From Deltaproteobacteria bacterium (GTDB taxonomy: Bacteria > Myxococcota > JADLHZ01), in the NCBI GenBank assembly GCA_020848545.1, contig JADLHZ010000044.1, forward strand, positions 186,001-250,000: a stretch of DNA of 64,000 nucleotides, in the 5' to 3' direction. Under the pieces are notes generated by a model. It did no database searches. It was not told the origin of the DNA and worked only from the letters and a program-made list of their open reading frames with translations. The position numbers and the translations under genes are program-made. Shown here piece after piece: positions 21,492-35,508 of the stretch; the stretch's first letter is position 1, and the number at the start of each line of letters is the position of its first letter.

Positions 21492-22304
21492 ATGTGCCGC
21501 ACGCTCGGGGTCTCCAAGAGCGGGTACTACGCGTGGTACGATCGCGAGCCGTCAGCGAAGGTGGTGCGTGACGTGGAGCTGCTCGTCGAGATCAAGAAGA
21601 GCCATGCCGCGTCGAACGGGGCGTATGGCGTGCCGAACATCATCCTCGATCTTCGCGACTGGGGCTTTGCCACGAGCAGAAAGCGGATCGCGAAGCTGAT
21701 GCGAAGCGCAGGTATCCAAGGCGTGAGTCGGCGGCGCAAGAGCACGGTGACAACGTTGCGAGCAGTGGACGACCCGCTGTCGCCCGATCTCGTGGATCGG
21801 AACTTCACGGCGGACGCGGCAAACAAGCTATGGGTCGCCGACATCACGTTCATCCCGACGTGGGTCGGCTTCCTCTATCTGGCGGTGGTGCTCGACGTCT
21901 GGAGCAGGAAGATTGTCGGTTGGTCGATGTCGGCGAACCCGGACACCGAGCTCGTGCTCGCGGCGCTCAACACCGCCGTCGCGCAGAGACAGCCGGAGGA
22001 CGTCGTGCATCACTCCGATCAGGGCTGCCAGTACACGTCGTTCGCGTTCGGCAAGCGCTGCAAACGGATGGGCGTGCGGCCGTCGATGGGCTCGGTCGGC
22101 GACGCGTACGACAACGCGATGTGCGAGAGCTTCTTCGCGTCGCTCGAATGCGAGCTGATCGATCGGACCTCGTTCAAGACGCACGCCGAGGCGAAGGCGG
22201 CGATCTTCAAGTTCATCGAAGGCTGGTACAATCCGCGGCGCCGACACTCAGGGATTGGTCGCATCGCGCCGATGGTCTTCGAGGCGATGCACGCCGCCGC
22301 GTAG
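21492..22304 (+). CDS. IS3-family transposase OrfB (DDE)
   Basis: A 270-residue catalytic half with an rve/DDE integrase core. The acidic residues are visible in WVADITF, HHSDQGCQYTS and NAMCESFFASLECE, and the C-terminal segment EGWYNPRRRHSGIGRIAPMVFE is typical. The frame is open upstream of this ATG and joins OrfA by -1 shift, so the listed start is only nominal. No internal stop or deletion is seen, so the copy may be functional. Confidence 0.9.
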   Translation: MCRTLGVSKSGYYAWYDREPSAKVVRDVELLVEIKKSHAASNGAYGVPNIILDLRDWGFATSRKRIAKLMRSAGIQGVSRRRKSTVTTLRAVDDPLSPDLVDRNFTADAANKLWVADITFIPTWVGFLYLAVVLDVWSRKIVGWSMSANPDTELVLAALNTAVAQRQPEDVVHHSDQGCQYTSFAFGKRCKRMGVRPSMGSVGDAYDNAMCESFFASLECELIDRTSFKTHAEAKAAIFKFIEGWYNPRRRHSGIGRIAPMVFEAMHAAA

Positions 22305-23218: not shown

Positions 23219-23293
23219 GGCCCCTTAGTCTAGCGGTCAGGACACGGCCCTTTCACGGCTGTGACACGGGTTCGAATCCCGTAGGGGTCACCA
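23219..23293 (+). tRNA. tRNA-Glu (TTC), integration site of the island
   Basis: A 72-nt cloverleaf plus encoded CCA: acceptor GGCCCCT pairs with AGGGGTC (one G-T pair), and the anticodon loop CTTTCAC gives TTC. Its last 24 bases (T arm, 3' acceptor strand and CCA) are repeated exactly at 35456-35479, marking attL of an integrated element. The integrase gene ends inside this tRNA on the opposite strand. Confidence 0.95.
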
Positions 23294-24576
23294 ACTTTCA
23301 TCATCAAAATCGGAATGTTGCCGGCACTGTAGCGCGGCTGTAGCAAGTTGCCGCGCTCTTCACTGCCCGCGGACTGCCCCCGATTTCCGCTCGCGACCAT
23401 CGGCAACACGTTCGCGTCGCGGCCGCGCACTTCGATCTTCAGCTTCGCGACTTCCTCGCAGAGCAGCTCCCACGGCAGCGACGTGTACATGTTCATGATG
23501 TCGCCGCGCGGGCCGTGCGTGATCGCTTCGAGAATGTCGACGCGTGCGCCGTCGCGACGCGCCAGCGTGATGAACGTGCGGCGCGCGTCGTGCTGTCGCC
23601 GCGGCCGCATGCCGAGACGCTTCAAGTCACCAACGAACGCGAGCCTCGCCGTCTGCACCACGCGGTGTCCGCCGTGCTTGAACGGGACGATGAGGTCATC
23701 CGCCGCCGGCGACGTCGCGTGACCGAGGAAGCGCTGCCAGCCGCTGAGCTTCCAGTCGGCGAGCACGCGCGCGAGCGTCGGATGCACCGGCACCTCGCGC
23801 GACACTTGGGTCTTCGTCGACTTCTCGCTGCGCGTGCGCACGTTGAACGACTTCGCGATGAGCAAATGCGCGAGCGGCTTGCGCGCTTTGTCGTACGCCG
23901 ACCAGCGTAGCGCCGCGACTTCGCCGAAGCGCGCGCCGGTGAGGAAGAGCAGCGCATAGAGCACGCGCCGATCTTCGGGCACTTGCTCGGACGAGATCAG
24001 CGTCTCGACTTCCTCACGCGTGAAGACGGCGCCGGCGCGCCACGACGGATCCTTGTCGACCTTCGCCGGCAGGTCGCCGCGCTTGAGCACGCATGGGTTG
24101 CTCGCGACGAGCTCGTCGACGACGGCCTCCTCGAACATCGTGTGCAACGTGCCGTAGACGTGGCGCACGCTGCGCGGCGCGAGCTGCTCGTCGCCGGGGC
24201 CGCACTTCGCCTTCAACGCGAGCACCAAGTCGCGAATATGCCGCGGGCGGATGTCGAACATGGCGAGCGCGCCGATCGCCGGCGTCGCGTACTTGGCGAT
24301 CCGCGCTTCGTCGTCGTCGACTTCCACACCGCGATCGCGTCGCGCGGTGATCCAACGCTTCGCGTACGCGCGAAAGGTGAAAACGCCCGCGCCGGTTTCG
24401 TCCTCGGCGCCGAGCTTTGCTTGCCGCTCGAGCTCGTCGGCAAAGCGTCGCGCGAGCTCTTCCTGGCCGTGCGCGTACGGCGTCGAGCATTGTCGGCGCG
24501 CGCCGGTCGCGTCGGTGTACGAGCACCAGAGCTTGCGCGTGCCGCTTCGTTTGTAGACGGACGCCATGTCAGCCAC
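23230..24576 (-). CDS. int: Tyrosine-type site-specific integrase
   Basis: A 448-residue phage-type integrase. The catalytic set is complete: Arg 216 (LTGARFGEV), Lys near 255, His 329 and Arg 332 (HDARRTF), His 354 and the nucleophile Tyr 364 (NMYTS). An N-terminal SAM-like core-binding domain covers about residues 65-160. The last 21 residues (VGDPYGIRTR onward) are read from the antisense strand of tRNA-Glu through the attL core, so the natural C-terminus depends on whether the island is integrated. In the circle the frame would continue past residue 436 for 79 more codons. The start overlaps the end of the upstream HTH gene by 8 bp, forming an xis-like/int operon. Confidence 0.92.
   Translation of the reverse strand: MADMASVYKRSGTRKLWCSYTDATGARRQCSTPYAHGQEELARRFADELERQAKLGAEDETGAGVFTFRAYAKRWITARRDRGVEVDDDEARIAKYATPAIGALAMFDIRPRHIRDLVLALKAKCGPGDEQLAPRSVRHVYGTLHTMFEEAVVDELVASNPCVLKRGDLPAKVDKDPSWRAGAVFTREEVETLISSEQVPEDRRVLYALLFLTGARFGEVAALRWSAYDKARKPLAHLLIAKSFNVRTRSEKSTKTQVSREVPVHPTLARVLADWKLSGWQRFLGHATSPAADDLIVPFKHGGHRVVQTARLAFVGDLKRLGMRPRRQHDARRTFITLARRDGARVDILEAITHGPRGDIMNMYTSLPWELLCEEVAKLKIEVRGRDANVLPMVASGNRGQSAGSEERGNLLQPRYSAGNIPILMMKVGDPYGIRTRVTAVKGPCPDR
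23270..23293 (+). repeat. attL core, 24-bp direct repeat
   Basis: Identical to 35456-35479. It starts GTTCGAATCCCG and ends GTCACCA and overlaps the tRNA-Glu T arm and 3' acceptor strand. Confidence 0.95.
23326..23344 (+). promoter_or_regulatory. Candidate integrase arm site, left end
   Basis: ACTGTAGC, then GCGG, then CTGTAGC, 33 bp inside the attL core and within the integrase 3' end. The same octamer occurs twice in the opposite orientation near attR (35336-35351). Paired inverted arm sites of this kind flank attP cores in tyrosine integrase systems. Confidence 0.45.
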
Positions 24577-24892
24577 TTTGCCTGCGAAGGTGAATTACTG
24601 CCAGCTGCTCGGGGGTGTGGTCGGCCTCCTTCGGCTTCGGCCCGGCCGCCATGAACGTGACGAGCTCGTCGCGATCGACGCGGTGGGAGCGGCCGGCTTT
24701 GAGCGCGCGCAGCTCGCCGGCAGCGATCCACTTGCGTACCGTCTTCGGCGTCACACGCGCGAGCTCTGCCGCTTCATTTACCGTCAGGCATGCGCGCTGC
24801 GACGCCGCCGGACTGGAGTGCATCGCCTCCGTCACCGCGGCGCGCACTTCGTCGCGGATCATCGCGCGCAGCGTTCGCTCGAGCTCGGTCAT
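24569..24892 (-). CDS. Excisionase-family HTH DNA-binding protein
   Basis: A 107-residue protein: an N-terminal helix (MTELERTLRAMIRDEVRAAVTEAM) that may dimerise, then an HTH_17/MerR-like domain (LTVNEAAELARVTPKTVRKWIAAGELRALKAGRSHRVDRDELVTFM). Such proteins bend DNA as recombination directionality factors or act as AlpA-type activators. The ATG at 24892 overlaps the stop of the upstream HTH gene (ATGA) and the stop overlaps the integrase start, giving a three-gene coupled operon. Assigned as xis-like from fold and position, not from a specific match. Confidence 0.8.
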   Translation of the reverse strand: MTELERTLRAMIRDEVRAAVTEAMHSSPAASQRACLTVNEAAELARVTPKTVRKWIAAGELRALKAGRSHRVDRDELVTFMAAGPKPKEADHTPEQLAVIHLRRQSG

Positions 24893-25155
24893 GCGCTCTC
24901 CTCTGGTTCGCTTGAATGGACCCCCGCTGGCTGAGCATGCCGCATCGCCCAGGCGCGGATCGCCGCCGGTTCGAAGCGCAGGGCCCGCCGTCGCGAATTG
25001 CTGTCCCCGAGCCGCGTGCACGGAAGCTTGCCGCGCTCCGCAGACTGGTAGACCTGAGACTTGGAGACGCGAAGGTATTGGGCGACGTCGTCTACCGTCC
25101 ACAGCGACTCGTGCCGCGGCTCCTGATGTTCGCACGTGTTCTTCGGCGTAGTCAT
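24889..25155 (-). CDS. AlpA/excisionase-like HTH protein
   Basis: An 88-residue protein with an HTH_17-type domain (SLWTVDDVAQYLRVSKSQVYQSAERGKLPCTRLG, then LRFEPAAIRAWA). It is the second such protein in the operon, upstream of and overlapping the first. The start codon lies inside a cluster of GTAGTCAC octamers (25148-25172), so expression could be controlled by a protein bound there. A role as AlpA-like activator or excisionase is inferred from fold and context. Confidence 0.8.
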   Translation of the reverse strand: MTTPKNTCEHQEPRHESLWTVDDVAQYLRVSKSQVYQSAERGKLPCTRLGDSNSRRRALRFEPAAIRAWAMRHAQPAGVHSSEPEESA

Positions 25156-25252
25156 GTAGTCACCGTAGTCACCTAGTTCCGGTTTGCTCGATCGTGAATT
25201 GGAAGGTTGCCAGTTAACGGAGAATTGCTGTCTACAGTGGCTACGTGACTAC
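25148..25252. promoter_or_regulatory. Inverted clusters of GTAGTCAC-type octamers
   Basis: GTAGTCAT (25148), GTAGTCAC (25156) and GTAGTCAC (25165) lie in tandem over the start of the AlpA-like gene. About 55 bp away three octamers in the opposite sense, CTGTCTAC (25228), GTGGCTAC (25237) and GTGACTAC (25245), sit in the helicase 3' end. The array could bind the HTH proteins or serve as iterons for the primase/helicase. Confidence 0.5.
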
Positions 25253-26678
25253 GACTGTCTTCCTCGTCGGTGGCGATCTTCTTGCGCACGCCGAGCCAGC
25301 CTCTAACCGGAGCGCCGCCCTCGCGCATTGTCGTCTCGCGGCAGCTGCGCTCTCGTAGCCGATCGGCGAACGCCTTGGGTCCGAGCGCGGTCGCTCCCTC
25401 GTCCTCGCACCACGTCGTGTAGCGGTGTCGAATATCGCGGCGAGAGATACGGGCGCCGTCCTCGAGAACACAGCAGTCGGCGAGGAAGTCGCCGAAGATG
25501 TCTTGCTCCCGGCGATACTGCTCGACAGCGCCACAAACGGCCGTAGGTGGATCGACAGACAGGGGCTGAGCTCGCCATAGGGCGTTGCCCTCGACGAGCC
25601 AACGAAGGATCCCCGGCAGCTCAGCGCGCAGCTTCTCGATGAGGCTTGGGTCGCGCTCGGCCTCCGGTATCGTGACGGCGAAAGGGATGAGCTTGATGCG
25701 CCGCCAAATCCCCTCGTCGGTGCCACCGATCGCTGGCTTGTGATTGCCAGCGAGCCAGAGCTTGTGCGTCGGCGCGAACTTCCAGAAGTCCTCTCGCATG
25801 CGGCGCGCCATGATGAAATCGCCACCGGTTAGCTGCTTCACAGTGGTCTCGGCGAAGCGCTTTCCCTGTTCCGTCTCTTGGCAGACGACAAGACGACGCC
25901 CGCACAGAGCGGCCTGCTCGGTCGGGTGTGCATCGCCCCCCTTCGACATGAGCAGGCCCGGAGGTCCCTGCTCGGCGTAGTCGCCGAAGAGCTCGAGCAC
26001 GATGCGCATGAGCGTGCTTTTGCCGTTCGCTCCCGCGCCGTGAAGAAAGAACAGGCACTGCTCGCCGACATCGCCAGTGAGCGTGTAGCCCAGCGCGCGA
26101 TGCACGAAGTGCAACAGCGCTTCGTCACCGTCGAGGATGCGGGCGATGAACGCCGCGAATGTCGGCGCCGTTGCCTCCGCGTCGTAGTTCACAGGTGCAA
26201 CCCTTGTCAGAAGATCCTGAGGATCGTGCTTGCGCAGCTGGCCGGTTGTGAGATCGATCGTTCCGTTCAGCACGTTGAAGAGCAACGGGGCGGCGTCGAG
26301 CTTCTCGTGCGCAATCGCGATCCCGGGCTCCGATCGCGCCATCGCGATCATTGCTGCAACGCGGTCGCGGCCAAGGCTTCGTTTTGCGTGCTTGAAGAGG
26401 TCGGTGTCAGCTGTCTTCGCCGCTTCTGCTAGTAACCGCCTGGCGGTTTTCTTGGCGAGCGCTTCGATTGAAACCCCGTCGTCGATGCGCCAGTGAGAGC
26501 CGCACCAGACGATCCACTTTTGCCACGTCGAGACGTAGCGAACGATCGACCCGTGCTCGTCAGCGAACGCTTGACCGTTGCCAACGTCCGAGCGCGCGAG
26601 CACGTCGCCCGTCTCGGATCTCGGTGCGACCACACGCAGCTCGGGCTCGGCGTCCTGCTTCGCGCTCCGCGCAGTCAT
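25173..26678 (-). CDS. P4/D5-family SF3 replicative helicase
   Basis: A 501-residue protein of the phage/plasmid primase P4 C-terminal type. A D5-N-like domain (LLFNVLNGTIDLTTGQLRKHDP) precedes an SF3 helicase with Walker A GAGANGKST, Walker B-like RRLVVCQE and motif C KLWLAGNHKP. A winged-helix-type tail follows (ISRRDIRHRYTTWCEDEG). It unwinds DNA at the origin of the element. In P4 primase and helicase are fused; here the primase is a separate gene whose stop overlaps this ATG (ATGA at 26675-26678), which also selects the start. Confidence 0.9.
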   Translation of the reverse strand: MTARSAKQDAEPELRVVAPRSETGDVLARSDVGNGQAFADEHGSIVRYVSTWQKWIVWCGSHWRIDDGVSIEALAKKTARRLLAEAAKTADTDLFKHAKRSLGRDRVAAMIAMARSEPGIAIAHEKLDAAPLLFNVLNGTIDLTTGQLRKHDPQDLLTRVAPVNYDAEATAPTFAAFIARILDGDEALLHFVHRALGYTLTGDVGEQCLFFLHGAGANGKSTLMRIVLELFGDYAEQGPPGLLMSKGGDAHPTEQAALCGRRLVVCQETEQGKRFAETTVKQLTGGDFIMARRMREDFWKFAPTHKLWLAGNHKPAIGGTDEGIWRRIKLIPFAVTIPEAERDPSLIEKLRAELPGILRWLVEGNALWRAQPLSVDPPTAVCGAVEQYRREQDIFGDFLADCCVLEDGARISRRDIRHRYTTWCEDEGATALGPKAFADRLRERSCRETTMREGGAPVRGWLGVRKKIATDEEDSRSHVATVDSNSPLTGNLPIHDRANRN

Positions 26679-27568
26679 GTGTGATGACCCTTCTGGCGCT
26701 CTTCGTTGAAGTCCTTGCACCCTGCGACGGGTGTGGCGATATGCACGCGCCGTCCTTCGGCACGGAAGCGCTGCGCGGCTGCGTGCGCTTCTTTCAGGCC
26801 AGTGGCATCGTTATCCGCGATGATCGTGATCTCGGCCGCGAGCGGCAGATCGGGGAGCGAGACACGTGAGAAGTTCGCTGTGCCGAGAACAGCCCAACAC
26901 GGAAGCGTCGGATCGTGGCTGAGCGCGTAGCTGAGTGCGTCCTCGATGCCCTCGGCGATGCCGAGTCGCGCGCCCACGGGCGCAAGACGAACTGCACCGC
27001 CGGCGACCGTGCCCAGCGACTTCTTCGCCGTCTTCGGTGGCACGTTCGCTTTCCCTGTGCCGTCTCGCCGCAAGTAGATGCGATGCACGCCGACGACGCT
27101 GCGATTCGGCCAACGAGACACCGCCGCGACAAGAGCCGGATGTCGCTCGCGCGACTCGGCATGCCAGAGCTCAGACGCGAACCGCAGTGTGGGTGGCGGA
27201 ACGATGTCGATGCAGCGGGACCGCAGGTACGTCTCGACGAGCGTGCTCACGGCTGAGCTCGAGGTCGTCCAGCATGCGAGAGCCTTTGCAGAGCGCTCGG
27301 CCGCGCTTGGCGCGACGTCCAGCGTCGGAGGTCGTCGTTCGTCGCAGCGCAGGTTGCGGTTCTTCAGCGCGGCGAGGATCGCGGCCTGGCTGCAACCGCC
27401 ATGGCACCGAAAGAGCGGCAGCCCGTTTCGACCGATGCGGATTGCGAGCGAAGGCGTCGTGTCCTTGTGCCCGTCGGCGATGCACCGAGCCATGTATTGA
27501 CCCGGCCCGGCTCGCTTTGCACCGAGCTCGCGCACGAGCTGCTCGAAGGTCGTCGACGCGACGCTCAT
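26675..27568 (-). CDS. DNA primase with zinc-finger and Toprim domains
   Basis: A 297-residue primase. The N-terminal zinc-ribbon is CIADGHKDTTPS to FRCHGGCSQ (Cys/His ligands spaced as in CHC2-type primases), and the Toprim domain holds IAEGIEDALSYAL and ITIIADNDATGLKEA, with the acidic residues for metal binding. It makes primers for island replication together with the downstream helicase. The ATG at 27568 is chosen because it overlaps the stop of a 22-codon ORF (ATGA type junction) and the domain starts there; the frame is open further upstream but overlaps the XRE gene. Confidence 0.88.
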   Translation of the reverse strand: MSVASTTFEQLVRELGAKRAGPGQYMARCIADGHKDTTPSLAIRIGRNGLPLFRCHGGCSQAAILAALKNRNLRCDERRPPTLDVAPSAAERSAKALACWTTSSSAVSTLVETYLRSRCIDIVPPPTLRFASELWHAESRERHPALVAAVSRWPNRSVVGVHRIYLRRDGTGKANVPPKTAKKSLGTVAGGAVRLAPVGARLGIAEGIEDALSYALSHDPTLPCWAVLGTANFSRVSLPDLPLAAEITIIADNDATGLKEAHAAAQRFRAEGRRVHIATPVAGCKDFNEERQKGHHT

Positions 27569-29943: not shown

Positions 29944-30237
29944 CTACTTCGCACGACTCTTCGCGTTCTTCAGCTCCGCTGCGATCGCGGTAGGTGCTTC
30001 GCCGAGACGTTGTGGGTCGCCATCGAGCACGTGAAGCCCGATGCGCATCGCCTGCGCGGCGAGGCTCGTGTGCGAGAGGAAGTCCCACCGCTGCACGAGC
30101 TTGTCGAGGAGCTCGCGATCTCCATCGGTGAGCTTCAAGAGCAGTTGGCGCGGCGAGCTTGCAGCCTCCACGCCTCGCTCGAAGTGCTCGCGGGCCCAGG
30201 ATCCTCCGCTCGGCGGATCCTTCTTCTTGGTCTTCAC
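29944..30237 (-). CDS. Small RHH-like protein coupled to serine recombinase
   Basis: A 97-residue basic N-terminus (MKTKKKDPPSGG) followed by GDRELLDKLVQRWDFLSHTSLAAQAMRIGLHVLDGDPQRL, a pattern compatible with a ribbon-helix-helix DNA-binding protein. The GTG at 30237 overlaps the recombinase stop (GTGA) and has GGAGGC as ribosome site, so it is chosen over a GTG 15 bp upstream. Coupling to the recombinase suggests an accessory role in its regulation or site binding. Confidence 0.6.
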   Translation of the reverse strand: MKTKKKDPPSGGSWAREHFERGVEAASSPRQLLLKLTDGDRELLDKLVQRWDFLSHTSLAAQAMRIGLHVLDGDPQRLGEAPTAIAAELKNAKSRAK

Positions 30238-30941
30238 GCCGCCTCCTTGCACACGAGCCTTTGCACTGTCGACTTGCCGAGCGGCTTGCCGGCGCGTCCG
30301 GTAATGCCCTCGGCGGCCAGCCTGGCGACAATGCCGCGCACACTCACGTTCGCTTCGCGCAGTTCGAGGACCCGCGCGATAGTCGCTTGCTCCTTGGCGT
30401 TGACCTCGAGCGTTCGCCCGTTCGACGCGAGGTGATAGCCGAACCGCACGGTGCCCGTGCGCTCGCCGCGCGATCTCTTCGCAGCAAGGGCGGCGCGGGT
30501 GCGCGCACGGATGAGCGCACGCTCGTACTCGGCGAACACGTCGACAATCCGCCGCATCATCAGCGCGGCCGGATCGTTCATGTCGTCGCCGCCCTCGCCA
30601 GCGGCCGATACAACGCGTGCGCCGGCTTTCTCGGCGAGCCGCTCGATGAGCGCGGCCTTCACCACGTCGCGGGCGAGGCGATCGCGCTTCGCGACGACGA
30701 GCAGCCCTGCACCGTTTGCCGTCAGAGCGTCGAGCGCCGCTTGCAGTGCCGGCCGATTATCGAGCTCGGCGGCGCCGCTGATTCCCTGGTCGACGTGCCA
30801 CGCGGCGATCGTGATGCCAGCGGCAGCCGCCCAGCGCTCAATCGCTTCGCGTTGCGCTTCTGGTCCGAGCCGCTGCTCTTCGGTGGAGACGCGAAGGTAG
30901 GCGACGGCTGACTTCGGGTTGGCTCGTGACTTACGTTTCAT
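30234..30941 (-). CDS. Small serine recombinase (resolvase/invertase family)
   Basis: A 235-residue recombinase. The N-terminal catalytic domain has the nucleophile Ser in AYLRVSTEEQ and conserved arginines in VAKRDRLARD and FAEYERALIRARTRAAL. The C-terminal part (GTVRFGYHLASNGRTLEVN to VRGIVARLAAEGITGRAGKPLGKSTVQRLV) is a short Recombinase-type domain with HTH end. It is much shorter than the large serine integrases and is probably a resolvase or invertase. It is a second recombinase besides the tyrosine integrase. The start ATG 30941 is preferred over an upstream TTG. Confidence 0.85.
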   Translation of the reverse strand: MKRKSRANPKSAVAYLRVSTEEQRLGPEAQREAIERWAAAAGITIAAWHVDQGISGAAELDNRPALQAALDALTANGAGLLVVAKRDRLARDVVKAALIERLAEKAGARVVSAAGEGGDDMNDPAALMMRRIVDVFAEYERALIRARTRAALAAKRSRGERTGTVRFGYHLASNGRTLEVNAKEQATIARVLELREANVSVRGIVARLAAEGITGRAGKPLGKSTVQRLVCKEAA

Positions 30942-30985
30942 GGTGTACAACTTAGCAAATGTTAGTATATGATTTCAAGTGTTAA

Positions 30986-31040: not shown

Positions 31041-31598
31041 ATGGGCGATGAAGTGAACGCGGGGCGGATGGCGAAGGTTTCGAAGGTCAGGAACGCAGGG
31101 CGGCAGACGAGGCCGGATTACGAGATTGCACGGGGCGAGGAGGCGCCGTTCGCGAAGGTGGGTGACTACGTTGCTGCCTGCACGTTCTACCGAAAGTACC
31201 CGCGCGGAAGCGACGCGCGCTACGTGTGGCAGATGCTGCGCAACCACTGGCGCGTCGTGCCCGGCACTGAAGACCACGACGAGATTCACTTCGCCGCGGA
31301 GTACTCAGCGGCGTACGCGCGCCTTGCTGGCCACGAGGACGACGCGCGCGAACTCGACCGCCTTCGTGAGGCGTGCCTGCCTGCGTACATCGCGCGTCGC
31401 CCGGAACAGCGCACGCAGCGCTGGCTTTCACAGCACGCCCGCGACACGGAGGTTACGACGCGAACGATCGTGAATGCTCCGGCGGTTGCTCGTGAGCTGC
31501 GTACGATTGCCAAGCAACTGGCGCGAGAGCGCGGAATGTCGTGGCGGGTGCTGCGTGAGCTCGAGATAGACCTGCTTTCGCGCCGCGAGGCCTGGTAG
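31041..31598 (+). CDS. Hypothetical island protein
   Basis: A 185-residue basic, helical protein (many Arg) with no motif I recognise. MGDEVNAGRMAKVSKVRNAG begins it after a strong GGGAGGAAC ribosome site. HFAAEYSAAYARLAGHEDDARELDRLREACLPAYIARRPEQR looks like a helical repeat. It starts the accessory block that ends in the HEPN protein and is probably co-transcribed with it. Unknown function. Confidence 0.65.
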   Translation: MGDEVNAGRMAKVSKVRNAGRQTRPDYEIARGEEAPFAKVGDYVAACTFYRKYPRGSDARYVWQMLRNHWRVVPGTEDHDEIHFAAEYSAAYARLAGHEDDARELDRLREACLPAYIARRPEQRTQRWLSQHARDTEVTTRTIVNAPAVARELRTIAKQLARERGMSWRVLRELEIDLLSRREAW

Positions 31599-31600
31599 CC

Positions 31601-31732
31601 ATGGCGTTCGCTCCATCGATGGTGCGGAAAACGCGAGCGCAATTGCTTGCCGAGTGCACGCCTAGTTGGCGCATGATCATGCGGACCCGCTTGTGCAAGC
31701 GCTTCGGGCGACGCGGTGGGGTGTTGGCGTGA
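31601..31732 (+). CDS. Small basic ORF
   Basis: A 43-residue frame from an ATG 2 bp after the previous stop (MAFAPSMVRKTRAQLLAECT...), ending in a TGA that overlaps a GTG of a second small frame (31729-31890, 53 residues, MSRADDLIAALLERVAAMR...). That second frame overlaps the HEPN gene by 62 bp and is less likely. Both are short and without homology. I regard the first as possible and the second as doubtful. Confidence 0.35.
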   Translation: MAFAPSMVRKTRAQLLAECTPSWRMIMRTRLCKRFGRRGGVLA

Positions 31733-31828
31733 GCCGCGCCGATGATTTGATCGCCGCATTGCTTGAGCGCGTAGCGGCGATGCGGGCTCCGTCTCGGTGG
31801 CTCCGCTCTGACGTGCTAGAGACGCGCC

Positions 31829-32656
31829 ATGAACGCCTCGCCTCAAAAGCAGCGCGCCCTCGACCGCTTGTCCAAGATGTCCCTTCGTGAGGCCGAGCAT
31901 CTAACCTTCGATGTCCTTCGCCGATGGCTCGACAAAGCGCCCGATCGGCGACCTTTCTCGGTCCACGGTGATTTCGGGTTGATCGCGATGGGTATTCTGT
32001 TCCCCGAGGCGGTCGAGGAAGATCGCATCGCGATGAAGGAAGTGTTCCTCAGCGGTCAAACAGGCCCAGAGCTCCGAACGATCTTCGAGACCTGGTGGGC
32101 GTTCGTTCGGCGAGGGCTGTTGATACCAACGCAGCATTTCCAGGGGCAGTGGATTTACTTCACACTCACTGACGCCGGCGCGCGCGCCGTTAGCAACGTC
32201 GATCACCCCTACTCGGCGAACGCGCTTGAGCGGCTGGCCGCTCGCTGCCCCGAACTGCCTGAGTTGGTGCTGACTTCGATCGACGATGCGATCCTCTGCG
32301 CGCAGCACGCCCTCTATCGGGCGTCAGTGACGCTGGTGGGGCTCGCCTACGAGGCGACCATCGAGCAGGTCTTGGAAGCGTTCGTGGCAAAGGGCCGCGC
32401 GAAGCTTCCGTTCAAGGCCGGGGATCGGGTTGGCGAGCTCAAGCGTGTTCTGGACGCGATCTCGTCTGTACACAAGGACGAACGTCGGATGCTGGCGTCG
32501 GCGATCGACTTTGGCGACCACCTTCGCGAACGAAGAAACGAAGCGTCCCACGCGAAGAGCGAGTTGCCGTTCGACAGCGCCGACGAGATCGATGAGTGGC
32601 TAGCTGGCGCCCTGCGTCATCTGCCGGTGCTGTGGTCAATGCGCTTGCTCTCGTGA
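31829..32656 (+). CDS. Winged-helix plus HEPN-domain protein, candidate defence RNase
   Basis: A 275-residue protein. Residues 60-120 look like a winged helix (RTIFETWWAFVRRGLLIPTQHFQGQWIYFTLTDAGARAV). The C-terminal part (LYRASVTLVGLAYEATIEQVLEAFV onward) is an all-helical bundle ending in LRERRNEASHAKS, where RNEASH (about residues 236-241) is the exact Arg-x4-His motif of catalytic HEPN ribonucleases. HEPN proteins are common in toxin-antitoxin and abortive infection systems. It lies in the accessory part of the island, where satellites often carry anti-phage genes. RNase activity and the defence role are inferences. Confidence 0.65.
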   Translation: MNASPQKQRALDRLSKMSLREAEHLTFDVLRRWLDKAPDRRPFSVHGDFGLIAMGILFPEAVEEDRIAMKEVFLSGQTGPELRTIFETWWAFVRRGLLIPTQHFQGQWIYFTLTDAGARAVSNVDHPYSANALERLAARCPELPELVLTSIDDAILCAQHALYRASVTLVGLAYEATIEQVLEAFVAKGRAKLPFKAGDRVGELKRVLDAISSVHKDERRMLASAIDFGDHLRERRNEASHAKSELPFDSADEIDEWLAGALRHLPVLWSMRLLS

Positions 32657-32859: not shown

Positions 32860-33034
32860 GGCGTATCTTCCTCTTCGACATGATGGCCGTTCGATCGCGG
32901 AGCGCGAGCGCCAAAAACGGTGCAGCGGCAGCGAACGTGAGCGGCGAGAGGTGCGACAGATCGCGACCGAGCGACTCGACGTAGAACGCGCAGAGCACAG
33001 CGCGCTCGTCGTCGCTGGCGAGCGCGTTACACAC
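32849..33034 (-). CDS. Small hypothetical island protein
   Basis: A short frame ending in LSPLTFAAAAPFLALALRDRTAIMSKRKIRRDN. The start is unclear: a GTG at 33034 overlaps the tail-type gene by 8 bp (61 residues), whereas an ATG at 33121 would extend it into that gene. The hydrophobic centre could be a membrane helix. Possibly a holin-like or accessory protein, but nothing specific supports it. Confidence 0.4.
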   Translation of the reverse strand: MCNALASDDERAVLCAFYVESLGRDLSHLSPLTFAAAAPFLALALRDRTAIMSKRKIRRDN

Positions 33035-34646
33035 GCGACGCTCGCCCGGTGCTTTGACGGCGAGCGATGGCGTGGCCGAGCTCGGCGCGCACGGCCTTAC
33101 GTTCGGCGGGTTCGTCGTCATCCCCGTCGTCATCGCGCTCGAGCGAGCCGACGCGCTTGTGCATGTGAGCGAGGCCGGCGAGCGCAGCACCGATAGCTTG
33201 CTTGATGTCGATCGCTTTGCCTTCCGGCGTGTCGATGACGAGCATGCGTCCGACGGGAGTGCGCTCTGCATCCTGCGCCATGATTCCGATGCGCCGTCCT
33301 TCGCCGTGTTTCTCGTCTTTGTAGTCGAAGGTCTTGGCCACGAGCGCTTCGAGAAAGTCGTCCATGTGCTCGCCGGCGTCGGCGACGTTCTTCTTCAGCC
33401 GGCGATCGGACATCGCTGCCGCGCCCAATGCTCCGACGGCCGAGATTCCGGCTCCGAGCAGCTGCGTGCCGGTCTGCGAGGCCGCCATCGCCACGCCCTT
33501 GTCCGCGGCGGCCTGGCGCGCGAGCAGCTCGGCGTTGAACTGCGACTGCTGCAGCTCGTACTGACGCTTCGCCGCGTCGAGCGACATGCCCTGCGCCATC
33601 AGCGCGCTGATCTGCTCGTCGGCGCTCTTTCGCTGGTCGACACCCGCGAGCAGGTTCGTTTTCATCGCGTCTTGCGACAGGCCAACATTCGTCTTCAGTC
33701 GATCGTGCACAAAGCCGGCGTTCGTCGCGGAGGCTTGCTGCGCGAGCTGCGCGTTCTGGCTTGCGGCGTCGAGATCTTGACCGCGCGCGCCGGCGAGCAC
33801 TGCGCCGAGCTGTTGCCGAGCGTTCTGGATCTCCTGTGCACGCACCGCCGAGGCCTGCGCACCCGTTTGCTGGGCGTTTTGTACCGCAGCGTTCTGCGCG
33901 GCCTGCATCGCGACGCTCTGGTTGCCGCGGCCGCTCTTCGCGAGCGCGATCGCCATTTGGTTGCCGGTGTTCGCACCGGCGCGCATCATGCCTTCAGCCG
34001 CGGAGGGACCTCGACCGGCGCTCTGCGCCATGAGTGCTTCGGCGAGCTGCTGCTGACTGCCGCGAAACTGGTTCGCTCCGCGCTGGTCGAGCTGCGCGGC
34101 GTCCATGCGGCCTTCGGTGTTCATCCATGAAGTGCCCATCGTCAGCGGCTGGCGTTGGTCGAGCTGCGCCAGGCGCTCGCCGATCATCGCCTTGTTCGCG
34201 TCGGTCGTCGTGTCGTCGCTGCGACCCGAGGTGTAGTGCTTGACGACTTGCACGCCGCCGAACGCACCGGGGATGCCGCCCGCGGGCGCGATCGCGTCCG
34301 ACACCTCGACGCCGGCGCGACGCGCTTGCTCCTCCTCGAGCGCACCCGTCGCTGCGTTGCGTGCCGAGTTGTGCGCCATCAGCTCGTCGACGGTGAACGG
34401 TCGACCGCCTGCGCCAGCGGCGATCTCGTCGGCCTTGTTCTGGAACGCGTCGTGTTTGAGCTGCGCGTCTTGGCCAAGCTTGAAGTTCGCGCCGTCGCGC
34501 ATCCCGTCGGCGCCCGGCGTATTGCCGGCGTTCGCTCGCGCCTGCGCGGCCTGAGCGTCTGCGACTGCTCGTCGATTCGCTTCCTCTTCCTCCGGCGTGA
34601 GCGGTCGCTGCGTTCCATCGCCGCGGGGCTTGTATCCAGTGGCCAT
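33027..34646 (-). CDS. Tail-type protein with C-terminal S74 chaperone domain
   Basis: A 539-residue protein. Residues 1-400 are Gln/Ala/Asn-rich helices with repeats (LAEALMAQSAGRG, MAIALAKSGRGNQSVAMQAAQNAAVQNAQQ) as in phage structural or internal virion proteins. From about residue 410, AAMSDRRLKKNVADAGEHMDDFLEAL starts a Peptidase_S74 intramolecular chaperone; Ser of SDRRLKK is the self-cleavage nucleophile and GIMAQDAE the typical second motif. The domain helps fold trimeric tail fibres and is then released. It is the only virion-type protein in the island. The ribosome site AGGAAAC precedes the ATG. Confidence 0.8.
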   Translation of the reverse strand: MATGYKPRGDGTQRPLTPEEEEANRRAVADAQAAQARANAGNTPGADGMRDGANFKLGQDAQLKHDAFQNKADEIAAGAGGRPFTVDELMAHNSARNAATGALEEEQARRAGVEVSDAIAPAGGIPGAFGGVQVVKHYTSGRSDDTTTDANKAMIGERLAQLDQRQPLTMGTSWMNTEGRMDAAQLDQRGANQFRGSQQQLAEALMAQSAGRGPSAAEGMMRAGANTGNQMAIALAKSGRGNQSVAMQAAQNAAVQNAQQTGAQASAVRAQEIQNARQQLGAVLAGARGQDLDAASQNAQLAQQASATNAGFVHDRLKTNVGLSQDAMKTNLLAGVDQRKSADEQISALMAQGMSLDAAKRQYELQQSQFNAELLARQAAADKGVAMAASQTGTQLLGAGISAVGALGAAAMSDRRLKKNVADAGEHMDDFLEALVAKTFDYKDEKHGEGRRIGIMAQDAERTPVGRMLVIDTPEGKAIDIKQAIGAALAGLAHMHKRVGSLERDDDGDDDEPAERKAVRAELGHAIARRQSTGRASRV

Positions 34647-34825: not shown

Positions 34826-35218
34826 TTAGTCGTCGTGTGCGTCCGATGCGGCGATCGCGCGAAGCTCCTCGGTCGACATCGTCGCTGCAGCCTTGAGGTC
34901 GCGTTGCAGCACGAGCTCGCGACGTCTCGCTTCGTCGGCTTCGCCTTCGGCGTGCCCCGGCTTGCCGTAAGCGCGGTCGAGGATGGAGTTGGCCGCGGCG
35001 ATGCGAACCCGTGCGTCGTCGTCTTCGAGCGATTCCGCGAGCACTGCGATGGCGCGGTCGGTGTGTTGGAGCGCGAGCTCGCGAAGGTAAGCCGTGCGCT
35101 TCGGGCGCCCGCCGGGATTGCCGCTCTGACCGGGCACGAAGCGTCCTGATCCGTTCCTGTTCTGAGGCGCCGCTGCTCGTCGGGGAGCAGCGGTCGGCGC
35201 CTTTGGTCGTGCAGTCAT
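34826..35218 (-). CDS. DUF5681 domain protein, small-terminase-like
   Basis: A 130-residue protein. The N-terminal NGSGRFVPGQSGNPGGRPK is the signature of DUF5681, found in phage and mobile-element proteins and often near terminase genes. The rest is helical with an ARVRIAAANSILDRAYGKPGHAEGE segment resembling the HTH-and-linker of small terminases. No large terminase is present. Its ATG overlaps the stop of the frame that crosses attR (ATGA at 35215-35218), so translation depends on what is read from there. A TerS-like role (packaging redirection) is an inference. Confidence 0.7.
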   Translation of the reverse strand: MTARPKAPTAAPRRAAAPQNRNGSGRFVPGQSGNPGGRPKRTAYLRELALQHTDRAIAVLAESLEDDDARVRIAAANSILDRAYGKPGHAEGEADEARRRELVLQRDLKAAATMSTEELRAIAASDAHDD

Positions 35219-35508
35219 CGGGCGCCCCTGGTTATGGCAGCGAGAGCCGTACGCAGAGCGTGCTCGAGCTCGTCGACGTCGCCGGCGGCGTGGGCACGCT
35301 GCGCGGCCGCGAGCGCGTCAGCGATTTCGTCGGTTGCTACAGTGCTACAGTGAGCGTCGCCGGGAGCGCGTTCGCTTCCCTCGCCTGCTGCGCCGCCCCG
35401 CGAAATCGCGGCGTTTTCTTCCTTCGCTTCCCCTCGATTCCCCTCGGCACCGCTCGTTCGAATCCCGTAGGGGTCACCATTTTTTTCCGGCGTCACCGGT
35501 GGCAGCAC
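35215..35508 (-). CDS. ORF crossing attR, in frame with integrase in the circle
   Basis: A 97-codon frame starting at a GTG in host DNA (35508), reading through the attR core as GDPYGIRT, then 79 codons (SGAEGNRGEAKEENAA..., DALAAAQRAHAAGDVDELEHAL) inside the island. The island part has no ATG, GTG or TTG in frame, so it cannot start by itself. In the excised circle the integrase frame enters it in the same phase through the same core, giving a 515-residue product. The stop overlaps the DUF5681 start. Confidence 0.55.
   Translation of the reverse strand: MLPPVTPEKNGDPYGIRTSGAEGNRGEAKEENAAISRGGAAGEGSERAPGDAHCSTVATDEIADALAAAQRAHAAGDVDELEHALRTALAAITRGAR
35336..35351 (-). promoter_or_regulatory. 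Candidate integrase arm sites, right end
   Basis: GCTACAGT twice in tandem, the reverse complement of the ACTGTAGC motif at 23326, lying 104 bp inside the attR core. In the circle the two pairs would flank the core in opposite orientation. Confidence 0.45.
35456..35479 (+). repeat. attR core, 24-bp direct repeat
   Basis: Exact copy of 23270-23293, the tRNA-Glu 3' end including CCA, followed by a T run (35480-35486) that was probably the tRNA terminator before insertion. Confidence 0.95.

Follow-up and report, generated by a model that had tools for sequence, protein, structure and literature searches.

What is the role of P0001, a 275-aa protein encoded by a single gene in a deltaproteobacterial mobile island? 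An initial annotation had proposed the gene as a new anti-phage candidate, combining an RNxxxH motif of HEPN ribonucleases with a winged-helix-like domain. The gene lies near the middle of the window analysed here (the whole stretch of 64,000 nucleotides). Its frame is intact from ATG to stop and is present as one copy in its own genome. Its codon-position GC (0.665/0.433/0.760) is of coding type and close to that of two other island genes, the integrase and D5. P0001 and the gene before it are as follows:

31829..32656, + strand: P0001, winged-helix and HEPN protein (probable HEPN ribonuclease), from the ORF, the family profile, AlphaFold2 and VIA-align
31041..31598, + strand: upstream gene of 185 aa, on the same strand as P0001 and 230 nt away

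The upstream gene had no Pfam or PHROG match, and its relatives were absent from the 188 other genomes of the phylum. An 80-aa ORF downstream is convergent with P0001. A GTG frame of 53 codons (window 31729-31890, + strand) overlaps the P0001 start; its composition (0.77/0.55/0.62) is not coding-like. No promoter- or terminator-like sites were found around P0001. The protein had no match at E up to 10 in Pfam and NCBIfam, and its PHROG matches were weak (best 0.018). Against PADLOC-DB 2.0.0 the best E value was 0.048, a marginal CARF-HEPN match at the C-terminus, with nothing convincing; the initial annotation, too, had matched the architecture to no named system.

The proposed location in an island was confirmed, and the island bears an integrase. 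The last 24 nt of a tRNA-Glu gene have a single exact copy elsewhere in the window, at 35456-35479, and the element between the two measures 12.2 kb:

23270..23293, + strand: left attachment core, the tRNA-Glu 3' end (ARAGORN tRNA 23219-23293, 24-nt direct repeat)
23230..24576, - strand: tyrosine recombinase (integrase), converging with tRNA-Glu (Pfam Phage_integrase 1.2e-6, over the cut-off)
24569..25135, - strand: HTH_17 excisionase-like DNA-binding protein (Pfam HTH_17 2e-13)
25173..26720, - strand: D5-type primase-helicase (Pfam D5_N 3.1e-33, PHROG DNA primase 7.2e-120)
26675..27538, - strand: Toprim primase-like protein (Pfam DUF7146 2.7e-27, Toprim_3 6.7e-15)
30234..30950, - strand: serine recombinase (Pfam Resolvase 1.1e-34)
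33027..34646, - strand: Peptidase_S74 (chaperone of endosialidase type) protein (Pfam 1.8e-9)
34826..35218, - strand: DUF5681 protein (Pfam 1.1e-8, PHROG 15261 2.6e-9)
35456..35479, + strand: right attachment core, exact 24-nt copy (direct repeat)

An HTH_3 regulator is also among the island genes. Because no capsid, portal or large terminase was found among the island ORFs scanned with Pfam and PHROGs, "satellite-like" is a fair, provisional description, and this gene content suggests that the element may depend on a helper. Searches with the upstream 185-aa gene and the DUF5681 protein returned no sister islands carrying the same cargo, and the phylum search contained no other genome from the genus or family of the source genome. 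For the D5 protein, viral contigs yielded no relative in a pattern scan. The same genome carries a second mobile element (L100, G000:C142:58000-77900), whose serine recombinase shares 71% identity over 235 aa with that of the P0001 island; both elements also have a DUF5681 protein and an HTH regulator. No HEPN protein match was found in this 19.9-kb stretch. Just outside the P0001 island, at window 21492-22304 (+ strand), lies an ORF that, from its sequence, we take to be IS3-type transposase-like.

The fold of P0001 was predicted with AlphaFold2 from alignment A4 of family members (pLDDT 85.9, pTM 0.80). Two helices (residues 5-36) precede a helix-helix-helix-strand-strand unit (H45-57, H63-74, H80-94, strands 98-102 and 109-113), and the C-terminal part consists of helices H132-139, H145-159, H163-187, H200-210, H216-240 and H251-274. 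Domains and motifs are placed as follows:

31946..32203, + strand: winged-helix-like domain, residues about 40-125 (helix-helix-helix-strand-strand in the model)
32246..32653, + strand: HEPN domain, residues about 140-275 (VIA-align HEPN matches)
32339..32353, + strand: GxAxE signature, residues 171-175, with the invariant Glu175 (51-row alignment A4)
32534..32551, + strand: catalytic-type motif R236-N237-E-A-S-H241 (R and H invariant in 51/51, N in 50/51)

Foldseek alone gave nothing at E <= 0.001 in the PDB or among viral models. VIA-align 2 served as a second look after Foldseek, and its Z values below 13 can be chance for helical bundles; its top match for residues 140-274 was the HEPN protein 2hsb (Z 14.2, 119 aligned residues, rmsd 2.8 Å), followed by Roquin ROQ-HEPN (Z 10.3-12.0) and by 1o3u, 1wol and HepT (Z 9.6-10.9), while the C-terminal part of AbiA reached Z 7.6. 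Residues about 10-147 aligned with PadR/MarR-type and other winged-helix chains (Z 6.5-7.8). A second family member, L045 from an Agrobacterium plasmid, was also modelled (pLDDT 88.8). Of the first 14 rows of its structural list, 12 are HEPN, HepT, Csm6 or Roquin chains; the other two come from structural genomics: 1ufb, which we take to be HEPN, and 2q00. The latter is described as the closest structural match of Roquin HEPN (PMC4614863). Neither structural list is headed by a clearly unrelated protein. A sequence search of the PDB returned "Dandelion-hepn" (9wx2) and MarR-family chains at E 0.037-0.74, too weak to rely on. Predicted fold and structural matches thus agree with the HEPN topology and the winged-helix-like N-terminal domain that had been proposed. 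The motif is also present as annotated, but it does not end the helical bundle: it closes the last long helix but one, and one more helix (251-274) comes after it.

Relatives of P0001 were reached mainly through an intermediate. Used as the sole query, P0001 found no relatives in pattern scans of genome contigs and viral contigs or by tblastn against phages and plasmids; within its phylum it gave one convincing match, P0002 (G189, 4.2e-6). Three further phylum matches (L003-L005, E 0.007-0.01) were taken as chance, and viral contigs gave no match to the two-row alignment A1. With P0002, plasmid copies were found in Mycobacterium marseillense and Agrobacterium vitis, and these three sequences, without P0001, retrieved 52 loci in genome contigs (84,980 species) and 2 viral contigs. 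Viral contigs thus account for 2 of the 54 scan loci, and most members lie on chromosomal or plasmid contigs of unrelated lineages, some being plasmid-borne. Before counting we dropped L027, L043 and L057 (broken or partial frames), L035 (a copy of L034), and L002, L006 and L008 (copies of L050 or L045). L007 is in the 51-member profile HMM and absent from alignment A4, and alignment A7 omits three more members (L011, L016 and L020). Directly after P0002 lies a 395-aa ORF (L002:2137-3324) that also has a HEPN-like stretch, R-S-S-A-V-H.

A profile of the 51 members, built without P0001, gave P0001 58.3 bits (E 4.4e-14 at Z = 1e6); the match covers residues 75-245, in both domains, and the best of 500 shuffles reached 3.4 bits. 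Within the phylum, a family match was present in 6 of 195 genomes, two of the six being weak. In the tree, members fall into 18 labelled groups, including Methanobacteriota, Nitrososphaerota and Thermoproteota. P0001 forms the longest branch (3.24 changes per column) and its placement is unsure. L018 (Rhodococcus) is placed under Cyanobacteriota, a label that looks like a name clash. Against PADLOC-DB 2.0.0, the 51 members gave no significant defence model (best E 0.011). Searches of the main text of PMC papers turned up no description of this solo wHTH-HEPN family. We conclude from the profile match that P0001 is a diverged, long-branch member of a broad wHTH-HEPN family, and we call it uncatalogued since it falls below the DUF4145 cut-off and has no convincing PADLOC 2.0.0 match.

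How much weight can the RNxxxH motif carry? In 20,000 composition shuffles of P0001, RN...H arose in 1.1%, so the motif alone is weak; the evidence that counts is that it is invariant in relatives. G171, A173, E175, R236 and H241 are invariant in all 51 rows of alignment A4; N237 is kept in 50, and R233 is nearly invariant. The Arg/His pair, whose loss among homologues had been named as grounds for giving up the HEPN reading, is therefore conserved throughout. E175 is a candidate for the conserved acidic residue of the HEPN site. One of the two patterns used to scan for relatives was the motif itself, a possible bias, so members without the genome-scan motif pattern were checked separately. 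All 25 such members (of 50) keep R236 and H241, as do 24/24 when L061, reachable by the looser viral-scan pattern, is excluded. RNxxxH is also found in L065, L066 and L067 and, as far as its sequence was read, in L068, all of them phylum profile matches obtained without motif bait. P0001 has S240 and A242 where nearly all other members have G and P.

The family was compared with Tha-1 and with DUF4145. Tha-1 of phage 80alpha is described as a one-gene prophage defence of Staphylococcus aureus, a protein of 301 aa with a C-terminal HEPN domain and the motif RNSIMH (PMC11087260). According to the same source it is a non-specific RNase once activated by phage tail proteins, and an H270A change abolishes protection (PMC11087260). 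The HEPN half of Tha-1 scored 19.0 bits against the family profile (E 4.3e-8 as a single comparison); 2000 shuffles reached at most 6.3 bits, and the highest of the 14 DUF4145 domains tested reached 12.1. G171, A173, E175, R236, N237 and H241 are in register with Tha-1. A direct BLASTP comparison of P0001 with Tha-1 was not significant (E 12), and hhalign of the family against Tha-1 was weak (probability 20%). The match begins at Tha residue 161, and the N-terminal half of Tha-1 gave no alignment with the family winged helix. Profile comparison indicates that the HEPN domain of the family is remotely homologous to the HEPN half of Tha-1, a link from family to family.

DUF4145 (PF13643), which also belongs to the HEPN superfamily, was the only recurrent Pfam signal, with sub-threshold matches in 14 of the 51 members (best 5e-4). 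Aligned to the family by hhalign, it has the motif in register (P 0.0024 vs 0.25 for the reversed alignment), with a probability of 12%; 20 column shuffles gave no more than 0.25%. We rejected P0001 as a DUF4145 member, as it falls under the Pfam cut-off (0 families at E up to 10); its own genome gave no PF13643 match at E <= 0.001. The aligned DUF4145 copies of the phylum (L069-L086) differ from the family in having G at the R236 position (GNxAxH). Many of these copies have an R three residues before that G, like R233 in P0001.

Genes around family members were chosen by an ORF heuristic, with no gene caller, and searched against PADLOC at 1e-10 (141 of 179 eligible genes within 3 kb, 114 of 129 beyond 4.5 kb). 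Defence genes showed no clear excess within 3 kb over those beyond 4.5 kb of family loci. In both sets the commonest PADLOC models match 3 members, which is why we claim no enrichment, and model numbers are incomparable between the sets because a single protein matches many PADLOC models. Single cases stand out: the A. vitis plasmid copy (L008, NZ_CP056050.1 14196-24753) lies near UvrD/PD-(D/E)XK, DUF6088-AbiEii, WYL and CBASS cyclase genes, and 4 of 50 family loci have type I methyltransferase-like genes nearby. No upstream partner recurs in at least 3 of 50 loci. The only recurrent adjacent gene is downstream, encodes about 480 aa and is confined to one clade of 6 loci (L014, L016, L018, L023, L024 and L025), with a gap of 0 nt in five. 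The wHTH-HEPN gene and this neighbour form a possible two-gene operon; most family members seem to be single genes.

Metal-independent RNase activity is predicted for HEPN domains that combine Rx4-6H, a polar residue (N, D or H) after the R and an acidic residue upstream (PMC3710099). P0001 has all three features (R236...H241, N237 and E175), which makes RNase activity likely, and on this sequence evidence we regard P0001 as very probably an RNase. An ordinary transcriptional repressor was rejected on two grounds, the invariant R/N/H and the net charge of the recognition-type helix (0 in P0001; family mean, -1.5). A neutral or acidic helix argues against ordinary DNA binding and for contact with protein or RNA. 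In Roquin, the wHTH is described as binding stem-loop RNA, with HEPN and ROQ gripping duplex RNA (PMC4614863); a wHTH and HEPN pair can therefore read RNA structure.

The reading we favour, by a modest balance of probability, is that P0001 is a one-gene effector, a HEPN RNase under the control of its winged helix and probably directed against phages. P0001 would be an endoribonuclease carried as accessory cargo of the 12.2-kb phage- or satellite-like element. Its C-terminal HEPN domain would probably form a homodimer, with R236, N237 and H241 of both chains and E175 lining a cleft that would cut RNA without metal. The N-terminal winged helix, a natural candidate for the gate, would keep the nuclease in check until it met a ligand made during infection, either a phage protein or structured RNA. 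The released RNase would then stop translation, and the incoming phage would fail. Phage defence by the family is plausible given its mobile setting, its patchy spread, the link to Tha and the single cases of the A. vitis plasmid and the methyltransferase-like neighbours.

The RNA contacts of Roquin also allow a different role. Both models have human Roquin ROQ-HEPN among their best structural matches, and non-catalytic HEPN domains exist (PMC3710099), so P0001 might instead be a Roquin-like or MtlR-like regulator that binds structured RNA and changes its fate without cleavage. We consider this unlikely, as R236 and H241 (51/51) and N237 (50/51) would be needless for mere binding and HEPN domains supposed to be non-catalytic are described without the motif (PMC3710099). 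Nor do the neighbourhoods favour a toxin that stabilises the island together with an antitoxin, either the 185-aa upstream protein or an unrecognised small product. Toxins paired with antitoxins are common among HEPN proteins (PMC3710099), and P0001 does have an orphan gene upstream on its strand and a 53-codon frame across its start. However, the orphan lacks relatives in the phylum genomes, the short frame has no coding-like composition, no upstream partner recurs in three or more of the 50 loci, and the one recurrent neighbour lies downstream in a single clade. A toxin-antitoxin pair is accordingly quite unlikely in our estimate.

We hold it equally improbable that P0001 serves the island itself, as a regulator or nuclease acting on a helper phage or on the element's own transcripts, with host protection as a side effect. 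The phage-like genes (D5 and Toprim primases, S74, DUF5681) and the lack of capsid, portal and large terminase among the scanned ORFs would suit such a role, but the family as a whole is rarely viral (2/54 scan loci) and is spread over chromosomes and plasmids of unrelated lineages. Finally, P0001 could be a diverged, inactive descendant in a decaying branch of the family. The longest branch of the tree and S240/A242 in place of G/P point that way and mean that its function could have drifted; an intact frame, coding-like composition and the retention of all five invariant positions make outright decay very improbable.

These results add to the HEPN ribonucleases an uncatalogued wHTH-HEPN family whose loci, as far as found, come from both bacteria and archaea. 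With just one gene of 275 aa to express, a test is easy: residues to mutate are defined, Tha-1, a distant relative with a proven defence role, can guide the assay, and the Roquin structures suggest how RNA may be gripped by a winged helix together with a HEPN bundle. If the winged helix is an infection sensor, P0001 would be a simple one-protein system joining sensing and RNA cleavage. A broader idea, which we offer as speculation and think doubtful as a whole, is that this pan-prokaryotic, mostly solo family is an infection-sensing defence and a sister of Tha, whose winged helix, with its neutral to acidic recognition-type helix, would sense phage-made structured RNA or protein instead of serving as a DNA-binding repressor module. 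The family would then be the bacterial equivalent of Roquin's wHTH-HEPN pair, but with a nuclease that is active.

Comparison with known systems qualifies the novelty of the architecture. The initial annotation had matched it to no named system; this holds for the catalogue (PADLOC) and fails as a claim of no precedent, since a wHTH and a HEPN domain in one protein are already known from CnuE (PMC11090510) and EC042_2821 (PMC3710099). CnuE, of type II CoCoNuT, is described as a wHTH fused to a single C-terminal HEPN ribonuclease, with a coiled coil between the domains, and is encoded with the UPF1-like helicase CnuH and the McrBC-type CnuB/CnuC (PMC11090510). No CnuH or CnuB/CnuC was found among the island genes scanned with Pfam and PHROGs, and a long GPPGTGK-type gene lies within 5 kb in only 1 of 50 family loci, on the opposite strand. 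P0001 as a CoCoNuT member was rejected by context, with no CnuH; CnuE was compared by description alone. The EC042_2821 HEPN family, which overlaps DUF3644, resembles P0001 in its active-motif HEPN and, in some members, an N-terminal wHTH; by the published description it differs in its REase and Zn-ribbon domains and in its setting in R-M operons (PMC3710099). Roquin (human RC3H1/RC3H2) likewise pairs a winged-helix RNA-binding domain with a HEPN bundle, but that bundle is built from the first three and last three helices around the ROQ domain (PMC4614863), and Roquin is an animal mRNA regulator. MntA-HepT shares the HEPN fold (Z 9.6-9.8, in the range that chance can give for helical bundles), whereas HepT pairs with a nucleotidyltransferase, of which none was found among the scanned island genes. 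Tha-1 differs in an N-terminal half that gives no alignment with the winged helix of the P0001 family; together with Tha-2 it resembles P0001 in being one gene of about 300 aa with an N-terminal part and a C-terminal RNxxxH HEPN domain, carried by a phage-related element.
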